Assembly: GCF_031157375.1 (NCBI RefSeq)
Contig: NZ_JAVIFV010000003.1
Location: forward strand, 818,001 to 882,000
Source: Sphingosinicella sp. LHD-64
Lineage (GTDB): Bacteria > Pseudomonadota > Alphaproteobacteria > Sphingomonadales > Sphingomonadaceae
Direction of reading: 5' to 3'
Length of the DNA: 64,000 nucleotides
Position numbers and translations under genes: made by a program. Shown here in pieces: positions 55,181 through 59,866 of this stretch. The stretch's first letter is position 1; each line of letters opens with the position of its first letter. Under the pieces are notes generated by a model, which worked only from the letters and a program-made list of their open reading frames with translations, was not told the DNA's origin and ran no database searches.

Positions 55181-55195
55181 CGATCCCCCTCCCCC

Positions 55196-55279
55196 GTCAT
55201 GCTGAACTTGTTTCAGCATCCATGCCTCCACCGCTGGCGCGCGCGACCAGCTGGACCCTGAAACAAGTTCAGGGTGACG
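55196..55279. repeat. Palindromic repeat family A, copy 1 (sufB-GNAT junction)
   Basis: It consists of hairpin TGCTGAACTTGTTTCAGCA near 55200 and hairpin CCCTGAAACAAGTTCAGGG near 55257, bounded by GTCA and TGAC ends and a 40-base middle. It stands between the sufB stop and the GNAT start. Further copies lie at 57069-57152 and 59768-59850. Confidence 0.85.
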
Positions 55280-55340: not shown

Positions 55341-55880
55341 ATGAGCCTCACCGTCCGCCCCGCCACGTCAGCCGACGCGCCCGAGCTGGCCGAGCTGCTC
55401 AACGCGATCATCGCGCGCGGCGGCACGACCGCGCTGGAGCGGCCGTTCACGCCCGAGCGGCTCGACGCGACCTATCTGACCGGGCCGGACGTGCTGTCCT
55501 GCGTCGTCGCGGTCGACCGTGCGAGCGGCCGCCTCGAAGGCTTCCAGACCCTGATCCGCGAGGACCATCTTCCGGCGGACTGGGGCGATATCGGCACCTT
55601 CGCGCGCGTCGACGGTATCCAGCGCGGCGTCGGCTCGGCCCTCTTCGCCGCCACCCGCGACCGGGCGCGCGAACTCGGCCTCGCCGCGATGAACGCCGAA
55701 ATCCGCGCCGACAATACGGGCGGCCTGGCCTTCTACGGCAAGATGGGCTTCGAGGACTACAAGACCGACCGCGCCGTCCCGCTCGGCGACGGCACGCCGG
55801 TCGATCGGATCAACAAGCGTTATGTGCTCGATGCCCCGGCACCTTCTGAGGTCAGCCGTGAGAGGAGCGTGGGACAATGA
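55341..55880 (+). CDS. GNAT-family acetyltransferase inserted in the suf operon
   Basis: 179 residues. GNAT features: MSLTVRPATSADAPELAELLNAII at the start, GIQRGVGSALFAATRDRARELG (acetyl-CoA loop R-x-x-G-x-G/A analogue), and MNAEIRADNTGGLAFYGKMGFEDYKTD at the end. It resembles the phosphinothricin / aminoglycoside-type acetyltransferases; the substrate is unknown. Such a gene is not part of typical suf operons. Its stop overlaps the next start (ATGA). Confidence 0.85.
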   Translation: MSLTVRPATSADAPELAELLNAIIARGGTTALERPFTPERLDATYLTGPDVLSCVVAVDRASGRLEGFQTLIREDHLPADWGDIGTFARVDGIQRGVGSALFAATRDRARELGLAAMNAEIRADNTGGLAFYGKMGFEDYKTDRAVPLGDGTPVDRINKRYVLDAPAPSEVSRERSVGQ

Positions 55881-56218
55881 TCTCAGTTTCTCGAGACAGC
55901 GTTGAAGCAGAAGTCCTGGAGAAAGCTCACCGCATTCATGAGCTGCGCAAAGGGCTTTCTCCGGCGGTGAGCCATCTAGTGAAACATGGCCTCTTCGAAG
56001 CAAACTCAGATTTCATCGACTGGGACAAAGGCCTTTGGGACCTACACGATTGGCTGATGCGCGAGCGAGCGCGCCTGATTGATGGAGAATCGCCGGTCGA
56101 GGTCCTTGAAAGAGCGCGAGCAGCAACCGCCCACTTGGACGGTGCATCGGAACGGATCGAACAATTTAAGGCCCGCGGATGGTGGGCGGACGTGAGTTTT
56201 AATGATGCTAAGGATTGA
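55877..56218 (+). CDS. AT-richer orphan protein between GNAT and sufC
   Basis: 113 residues of unknown function (MISVSRDSVEAEVLEKAHRIHELRKGL ... WWADVSFNDAKD), mainly helical and charged, with WDKGLWDLHDWLMRERARLIDG in the middle. Its DNA is clearly less GC-rich than its neighbours and uses codons such as AAA, TTT and CTA that they avoid, so it was probably acquired recently. It overlaps the GNAT stop (ATGA) and runs 17 bases into sufC. No family recognised. Confidence 0.6.
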   Translation: MISVSRDSVEAEVLEKAHRIHELRKGLSPAVSHLVKHGLFEANSDFIDWDKGLWDLHDWLMRERARLIDGESPVEVLERARAATAHLDGASERIEQFKARGWWADVSFNDAKD

Positions 56219-57044
56219 AAACCTCCACGCAGAAGTCGACGGCAAGCCGATCCTGAAGGGGATCAGCCTCGAACTGAACCCGGGCGAGATCCATGCGATC
56301 ATGGGGCCGAACGGGTCGGGCAAGTCGACGCTCAGCTACGTCCTCGCCGGACGACCGGGCTATGAGGTCACCGAGGGGTCTGTCACGCTCACCCTTCCCC
56401 GTCACTGCGAGGGGCGAAGCGACGAAGCAATCCAGGGTGGCTCGGCCTCCGAGACTGGATTGCTTCGCTCCGCTCGCAATGACGAGGAGAGCATCGATCT
56501 CCTCGCCCTCGATCCGCACGAGCGCGCCGCCAGGGGCATGTTCCTCGGCTTCCAGTATCCGGTCGAGATTCCCGGTGTCTCCAACGTCCAGTTCCTGCGC
56601 ACCGCCTTGAACGCGCAGCGCAAGGCGCGCGGCGAGGCGGAGCTGTCGGCGGGCGATTTCCTGCGGATCGCGCGCGAACAGGCCGATGCGCTCGGGCTCG
56701 ACATGGAGATGATGAAGCGCGCCGTGAACGTCGGCTTTTCGGGCGGCGAGAAGAAACGCAACGAGATGGTGCAGATGGGGATCATCGATCCGGAGCTCGC
56801 CATCCTCGACGAGACCGACAGCGGCCTCGACATCGATGCGCTGCGCGTCGTAGGCGAGGGGATCAACCGGATCCTGCGCAAGCCCGACAAGGCGGTGCTG
56901 CTCATCACCCACTATCAGCGCCTGCTCGACCTCGTCCGCCCCGATTTCGTCCACGTCCTCGCCGGCGGCCGCATCGTCCGCTCCGGCGGCGCCGAGCTCG
57001 CGCTGGAACTGGAACGCGAAGGCTATGGAGCGATCGCGGCGTGA
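56202..57044 (+). CDS. sufC: Fe-S assembly ATPase SufC with an in-frame repeat insertion
   Basis: 280 residues against about 248 in E. coli. Walker A GPNGSGKST, ABC signature FSGGEKKRNE, Walker B LAILDETDSGLD and the H-loop LITHYQR are all intact. Between TEGSVTL and DLLALDPHERA, residues 64-97 (RHCEGRSDEAIQ ... GLLRSARNDEE) are extra. They are encoded by an in-frame palindromic repeat at 56400-56484. The insertion follows the ATP site before the Q-loop region FQYPVEIPG. SufC is the ATPase of the SufBCD complex. Two adjacent ATGs are possible starts. Confidence 0.95.
   Translation: MMLRIENLHAEVDGKPILKGISLELNPGEIHAIMGPNGSGKSTLSYVLAGRPGYEVTEGSVTLTLPRHCEGRSDEAIQGGSASETGLLRSARNDEESIDLLALDPHERAARGMFLGFQYPVEIPGVSNVQFLRTALNAQRKARGEAELSAGDFLRIAREQADALGLDMEMMKRAVNVGFSGGEKKRNEMVQMGIIDPELAILDETDSGLDIDALRVVGEGINRILRKPDKAVLLITHYQRLLDLVRPDFVHVLAGGRIVRSGGAELALELEREGYGAIAA
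56400..56484. repeat. Palindromic repeat (family D) inside sufC
   Basis: The arm GTCACTGCGAGGGGCGAAGC... (left, from 56400) and the arm ...GCTCGCAATGACGA (right, to 56484) are inverted copies over roughly 30 bases. Both contain GCAATCCAG / CTGGATTGC ends facing a short loop. This is the widespread GTCATTGCGAG...GCAATCCAG type of repeat, here without stop codons and in frame with sufC, where it adds about 32 residues. Confidence 0.85.
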
Positions 57045-57068
57045 ACGGGCCTGTTCCCTCCTTCTTCC

Positions 57069-57152
57069 GTCACCCTGAACTTGTTTCAGAGTCCAGCTCT
57101 TCGCACGCCATGCCGGTGGAGGGCTGGATGCTGAAACAAGTTCAGCATGACA
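57069..57152. repeat. Palindromic repeat family A, copy 2 (sufC-sufD junction)
   Basis: The order of the two hairpins is reversed compared with copy 1: CCCTGAACTTGTTTCAGAG-like arm first, then ATGCTGAAACAAGTTCAGCAT. It lies between sufC and sufD. The remaining 57153-57327 contains an inverted pair AGCTTCCCT (57221-57229) / AGGGAAGCT (57281-57289) but no convincing gene. Confidence 0.85.
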
Positions 57153-57327
57153 ATGAAGGGGGCAGCCCCGGCATTTTCCTACACACCCCGTTTCGTGCTT
57201 TGCTTTCGGCCATGCGCGCCAGCTTCCCTCGTTCCCAGATTCACCCAGCGGGTCTGATGGAGATCAGGTTTTTTTCCCTAGGGAAGCTGAAACTTATGAA
57301 ACTTACGCGGCTCGGGGGCACAGCCTG

Positions 57328-59758: not shown

Positions 59759-59767
59759 ACACTAACC

Positions 59768-59850
59768 GTGATGCTGAACTTGTTTCAGCATCCAGTTCTC
59801 CGCCTCCCGGGAGGCGACAAGATGGACCCTGAAACGAGTTCAGGGTGACG
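59768..59850. repeat. Palindromic repeat family A, copy 3 (sufS-sufT junction)
   Basis: ATGCTGAACTTGTTTCAGCAT (59769-59789) and CCCTGAAACGAGTTCAGGG are the hairpin pair, with a 35-base middle. The order is the same as copy 1. It fills nearly all of the 108 bases between the sufS stop and the sufT start. Confidence 0.85.
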
Positions 59851-59866
59851 TTTCTGAAAGCGTAGA

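Follow-up and report, generated by a model that had tools for sequence, protein, structure and literature searches.

The window – the whole stretch of 64,000 nucleotides from Sphingosinicella sp. LHD-64 that was analysed – carries a sufC gene that keeps its position among the suf genes and contains, in frame, a palindromic element belonging to a repeat family of the same genome (family A). The features on which the analysis centres are these:

56202..57044, plus strand: sufC, encoding the SUF-system ABC ATPase (280 aa, with the in-frame insert; PF00005, 3.6e-16; SufC structures 2zu0, 5awf and 2d3w)
56391..56495, plus strand: segment of 35 codons that replaces the three-residue turn (e.g. D-G-K/E) of insert-free alleles, from the alignment
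56400..56484, no strand assigned: palindromic element of family A, 85 bp, consensus CGTCATTGCGAG...GCAATCCAG, from the sequence and the genome copies
56400..56435, plus strand: left arm, 36 nt, limits set by eye
56436..56454, plus strand: spacer separating the arms, 19 nt
56455..56484, plus strand: right arm, 30 nt, a near reverse complement of the left arm

A reading made from the sequence alone had placed a palindromic repeat, in frame, at 56391..56492 of sufC. This interval agrees to within one codon with the segment that replaces the turn; the palindrome proper is the inner 85 bp, beginning with CGTC at 56400 and ending with GACG at 56484 (limits by eye). The net gain is 32 residues, close to what that reading had estimated, and it falls between Walker A and the Q-loop: the distance from Walker A to QYPVEIPG is 91 aa, compared to 59 in insert-free SufC. 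The palindrome was also correctly read as free of stops in the sufC frame; stops are present in two of the six frames. Over both arms together the sufC copy differs from the consensus of its own genome by three mismatches, its left end (CGTCAC) is unlike that of the consensus, and the difference of 6 nt in arm length recurs in other genomic copies. When the whole element is folded as RNA the 36-nt and 30-nt arms are predicted to pair with one another (56391-56492: -54.6 kcal/mol, z = -4.8), and none of 200 shuffled sequences was equally stable. A search of Rfam returned no family at gathering score between 55100 and 60000.

Three palindromes of another family (GTCATGCTGAACTTGTTTCAGCATCC type) occupy intergenic positions in the suf operon (55185-55279, 57068-57162 and 59764-59853), the first two being inverted copies of one another. 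Between sufB and sufC (55341-56218) lie two ORFs, named by eye: one for a GNAT-like acetyltransferase and an unassigned one of 113 aa, the latter overlapping the start of sufC by 17 nt.

In the AlphaFold model of the window's SufC (mean pLDDT 79) strand 54-66 precedes the insert and strand 95-99 follows it; the insert has a pLDDT of 33-37, and residues 69-92 all fall below 50. The model thus predicts a disordered loop of 32 residues away from the ATPase motifs, in line with the earlier expectation of a tolerated loop, disordered or helical. The expectation that fold and motifs are intact is likewise borne out: Foldseek matched SufC structures from E. coli and from Thermus, with identities of 43-51% (about 50% for E. 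coli SufC), and the ABC_tran (PF00005) match runs across the insert.

That the palindrome is a repeat, and not a product of chance, follows from its occurrence in at least 40 places in its own 3.9-Mb genome (40 of 80 first-look candidates scored). The other copies are 79-87% identical to the query, and a typical copy consists of CGTCATTGCGAGGAGCGAAGCGACGAAGCAATCCAG, a spacer of about 20 nt, and CTGGATTGCTTCGCTTCGCTCGCAATGACG. Thirty-nine of them were read together with flanks of about 1 kb, a frame being counted if it was open, at least 150 aa long and extended at least 16 aa to either side of the palindrome; 23 copies lie in such a frame and 16 do not. The sequence-only reading had suggested a search for the repeat within other reading frames; Pfam, run on all 26 qualifying frames of these 23 copies, found no domain interrupted by the palindrome. 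A domain lies downstream of the palindrome in two of the 26 frames, and the frames of loci L159 and L164 had no Pfam match. From the absence of interrupted domains it appears that family A is placed mostly in intergenic DNA. Palindromes are also situated upstream of, and share an open frame with, an MFS domain at L150, an AMP-binding domain at L176 and a FeoA domain at L202; if the start were falsely placed too early, such palindromes would look coding.

If the insert were unique to this lineage, as an alignment of SufC from relatives had been expected to show or deny, then the site should be empty elsewhere. Relatives with inserts at the same site, mostly of other palindromes, rule this out, and the contrary outcome named by the sequence-only reading – the same residues carried on non-palindromic DNA – was not what the relatives have. 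Among 26 genomes of the genus, 23 contain a SufC match at 1e-80 (those without are G004, G016 and G021; the SufC locus of G016, L141, stops at a contig edge), and the site is filled in nine of the 23. Of the eight filled genomes other than the window's own, just one carries family A, the remaining seven carrying other palindromes; the two family A alleles (L001 and L003) fall in different clades of the SufC tree.

In a wider sample of 397 Sphingomonadaceae genomes, 380 gave a SufC match at 1e-60 (the 17 without a match were left out), and at least 36 of the 380 have a filled SufC: these form a separate high-scoring group in which the matches span the insert. Each of the 36 was read and proved to have its insert in frame at the SufC site, nearly always clearly palindromic. 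The other 344 were called not filled by score and match start (the start for the matches shown); since only part of the matches in this sample is listed, 36 is a lower bound. A sample of the class comprised 240 genomes, with a match at 1e-60 in 133 (107 without one were left out). Judged by match start, none of the 130 matched genomes outside the Sphingomonadaceae spans the insert, and only the window's own genome does; nor is it spanned in any of 16 genomes from other families of the order (eight of them read). Filling of the site is thus restricted to the Sphingomonadaceae within this sample. SufC loci were found by protein match, and frame-broken sufC genes would therefore be under-sampled. 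Two loci, L087 and L089, come from records titled Microvirga and uncultured Stenotrophomonas; their SufC groups inside Sphingomonas and the records are probably misnamed.

Altogether 140 SufC loci (134 distinct proteins) were readable, a sample that is enriched for filled alleles and does not measure frequency. Fifty-two loci are filled, yielding 48 distinct filled alleles, which were sorted by their arms, in part by eye, into about nine families. D is the largest with 16 alleles, followed by H with 8, F with 7, C with 4, B, E and I with 3 each, and A and J with 2 each; some relationship among E, F and H is possible. Mapped on a quick SufC tree from which the insert columns had been removed, the filled or empty state changes at least 23 times (nine changes are forced by starred branches), compared to a mean of 39 when states are shuffled; with palindrome family as the state, the number of changes is 40. 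The lower number relative to the shuffled mean reflects clustering, that is, partial inheritance, and 23 is therefore not a count of insertions.

In the five genomes checked, the copy in SufC stands close to the consensus of the genome in which it resides. Mismatches in the arms number three in the window's genome (G000), none in G041, one in G010, none in G019 and one in G007; the corresponding medians for other copies are 2 (n = 36), 3 (n = 7), 1 (n = 13), 2 (n = 12) and 2 (n = 14). Identity to the window's SufC protein is only 74-84% in the four relatives. Being so near the consensus, these five SufC copies are either young or kept uniform by conversion.

To these were added 48 further copies outside SufC: family F in G041 (7) and G010 (14), and family D in G019 (13) and G007 (14). 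The 48 are those of the listed copies that have loci; not counted among them are the SufC copies (L180, L181, L209 and L218, plus the duplicate L201), the duplicate listings L197 and L199, and the half-elements L203, L206 and L208. Thirty of the 48 lie in a qualifying frame, and 39 frames were run through Pfam. No examined copy in G041, G010 or G007 is inside a Pfam domain; palindromes lie upstream of a domain in FeoA of G010, PNPase of G007 and FlgI of G019. In G019, six of the 13 copies are in frame in conserved proteins, namely in the linker of an E2 acyltransferase, between domains of RNase R, in ValRS, in an Lhr-type helicase, in methylmalonyl-CoA mutase, and in ThiC behind the main domain. 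SufC is accordingly ruled out as the sole affected gene. G019 is a 2.5-Mb relative, and its palindromes in housekeeping genes are at L211, L215, L219, L223, L225 and L227.

Relatives searched with the G019 proteins show, in methylmalonyl-CoA mutase, ValRS (at two sites) and ThiC, a recurrence similar to that of SufC. The mutase linker is filled in six of the 23 genus genomes in which the region was read (in one by a shorter insert), with arms of families D, J and C-rich types. Site 1 of ValRS holds an insert in G019 and G007 as well as in the window's genome, while G010 has a shorter palindromic one there; site 2 is filled in G019, G007, G016, G009 and G004, and many shorter variants are seen in other genomes (locus L271, which has no anchors at site 2, was dropped from the count). 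The relevant region of ThiC is present in 11 genomes and filled in five of them, two carrying family D and three other palindromes. For the Lhr-type helicase, G019 is the one genome of 12 in which the insertion was found. Locus L271 is the ValRS gene on contig C1 of the window's genome; its in-frame palindrome, CCCTCTCCCC...GGGGGAGAGGG, differs from family A and sits at the loop that is filled in G019 and G007.

How the site passes from empty to filled can be approached through the residues that flank the insert. None of the 48 filled alleles looks like a plain insertion into an otherwise unaltered turn: the turn of the empty allele is intact in none of them, the G two residues after the strand-end F/L is present in 0 of 48 filled alleles vs. 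83 of 85 empty ones, and the G two residues before DLL is found in five of the 48. Either a fresh insertion removed a few target bases, or a palindrome was replaced within an older slot; we give the two about equal weight. According to the latter account, the filled allele goes back to one or a few old insertions, whose core was exchanged for later palindromes while the flanking codons were kept, the proposed routes being excision to a scar followed by re-entry, or non-homologous gene conversion. We regard this account, routes included, as a serious possibility that stops short of being probable.

Besides the lack of any filled allele with an intact turn, it draws on related alleles that have common flanks around unlike palindromes: EESI in L001 (family A) and L031 (F), DGW in L003 (A) and L005 (D), EEW in L007 (F) and L008 (D), and GEW in L041 (B) and L071 (D). 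SufC of Sphingopyxis granuli (L045) has just six extra residues, FTPSLQAGAIDLL, likely the scar of a palindrome lost by deletion. Alleles L047 and L115, moreover, are about 95% identical over the region; the former is empty with its turn complete, and the latter is filled, its insert being clearly akin to the one in L043, a more distant allele. Deletion alone would not yield such a turn, and L047 may have regained the empty allele by recombination.

Against an inherited slot stands first a shuffle test of flank sharing, in which the observed sharing was reached by 293 of 5,000 shuffles on the right side, which is suggestive only, and by 2,381 of 5,000 on the left, which is negative. Second, the helicase insertion confined to G019 among the 12 genomes (L320) also lacks two residues of the sister's allele, and it starts with TTCACCCC, as do the mutase insertion (L238) and five of the 48 SufC inserts. 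This common start hints at an element end beyond the palindrome, or at a preferred neighbour sequence, and since the helicase insertion both loses target residues and starts in this way, the target loss and the flank may belong to the insertion event. Shared flanks thus fail to prove a slot of single origin, a proposition that the shuffle test does not support and that the helicase case weakens. More tentatively still, the slot may be heritable in the sense that a resident palindrome is itself the landing or conversion site, at which unrelated families displace one another with the frame kept. If true, one position in each of several conserved proteins would be a cassette site for selfish hairpins.

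Whichever way the turn is altered, we consider it probable that selfish palindromes resembling REP dimers persist in genes only where they are in frame and in tolerant turns, and that a few turns are refilled. On this hypothesis a copy of a resident, non-autonomous palindromic repeat (like a REP dimer or REPIN, of the CGTC type) would have settled in the turn that joins two beta-strands of SufC. Since the frame in which it is read there is hydrophilic and lacks stops, the ribosome should pass through the element, SufC gaining a disordered loop of 32 residues. Purifying selection would clear insertions that break frame or fold, and the survivors would therefore gather in a few indel-tolerant turns; in the Sphingomonadaceae these turns would be refilled over and over by each lineage's own palindrome family, and emptied again by allele exchange and deletion. 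One loop of SufC, in short, seems to be refilled repeatedly by whatever repeat each genome hosts.

The extra loop might instead be adaptive at the level of the protein, serving SufC in docking or regulation, for example. Nonsynonymous change is indeed depleted in three comparisons among three Sphingopyxis-type orthologous inserts (pN/pS 0.09-0.28; P = 0.0003, 0.0008 and 0.008, the comparisons being non-independent), and the amino acids of the insert appear not to be neutral everywhere, which counts against the explanation we prefer. Yet no clear depletion is evident in other pairs of similar inserts (L058/L072, P = 0.51; L137/L140, P = 0.56; L043/L115, P = 0.095), the site is taken up by peptides that are unrelated to one another, and disorder is predicted for the insert; an adaptive loop is thus unlikely. 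Selection on the hairpin itself, as an RNA or DNA element within sufC that tunes expression of the suf operon, is less likely again, to the point of being improbable. While 31 of the 48 inserts fold better than every same-length control window of their own gene, and intergenic palindromes are also present in the window's suf operon, 17 inserts do not beat all controls; those of L036, L120 and L126 fold less well than the control mean and yet are kept, and most of the family genomes sampled have no detectable insert. An artefact of assembly or annotation, or a decaying gene, can be set aside with near certainty, given that dozens of assemblies have an insert at this site, that the frame is kept in every readable locus, and that sufC is still in place among the suf genes.

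The palindromic elements of Rickettsia (RPE-4, RPE-6 and RPE-1) are protein-coding palindromes in conserved genes, and the likeness to them that the sequence-only reading perceived is upheld: here too a palindrome lies in frame in a conserved ORF that it leaves open. The hosts of RPEs are obligate intracellular bacteria, whereas the hosts here are sphingomonads, with many unrelated families at one position.

A closer counterpart is provided by the CGTC-tagged REPs. In the sections of PMC3733652 that describe them, these are recorded from alphaproteobacteria including S. wittichii, and are characterised by a CGTC end tag followed by AT, by tails fitting CCA, and by paired inverted units, each with a stem of 8-9 bp and a loop of 4-5 nt. 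The same sections report some copies within ORFs of several species, where they code for 20-30 residues (among these ORFs are genes for tRNA synthetases in S. alaskensis and E. litoralis), describe no association with a transposase, note different REPs at about one site in recB of two Xanthomonas species, and equate RPE-6 and RPE-4 with CGTC-1 and CGTC-4. The family A consensus (CGTCATTGCGAG...GCAATCCAG) has the outer CGTC tag followed by AT and tails near CCA; the element is repeated (at least 40 places), pairs inverted units, is probably mostly intergenic, and occurs in a genome without a tyrosine transposase gene as judged by PF01797. Alphaproteobacterial hosts and copies in ORFs are further shared traits, and where tested family A fits the published description as given in those sections. 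We infer that family A corresponds to CGTC-1, an assignment set by the description of CGTC REPs and not by RPE sequence. The CGTC REPs of those sections offer one same-site case (Xanthomonas recB), whereas about nine families share one SufC site here, with further genes affected too; and families B, C, D, H and J, unlike CGTC REPs, have no CGTC tag.

In-frame REPs are therefore known, from Rickettsia and from PMC3733652, and the new element is the turnover of many families at one position. Within the open-licence literature we found no report of a single position filled time and again, within one bacterial family, by palindromes of many unrelated families (whether in SufC, the mutase, ValRS or ThiC), and nothing relevant on SufC palindromes in sphingomonads; a paper that did come up uses 'palindromic' for CRISPR alone. 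The site amounts to a replicated natural experiment, in which one loop of an important ATPase has received many repeat-encoded peptides in at least 36 sampled genomes; it opens questions of how selfish palindromes choose and change sites, how protein segments are born from repeats, and how far enzymes tolerate arbitrary loops. It also cautions against taking large insertions in the proteins of sphingomonads for functional domains, since they may be repeats.

A REPIN is built of two inverted units with a spacer, and family A resembles it in this and in its many copies. The difference concerns the transposase: in the REPIN/RAYT system (PMC3116915, PMC2817692) the repeat has a cognate RAYT, whereas the PF01797 (Y1 transposase family) profile has no match in G000 or G019. 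No RAYT of the kind that this model recognises was found as local mobiliser in the window's genome. The same profile has one or more matches in six of 14 genus genomes.
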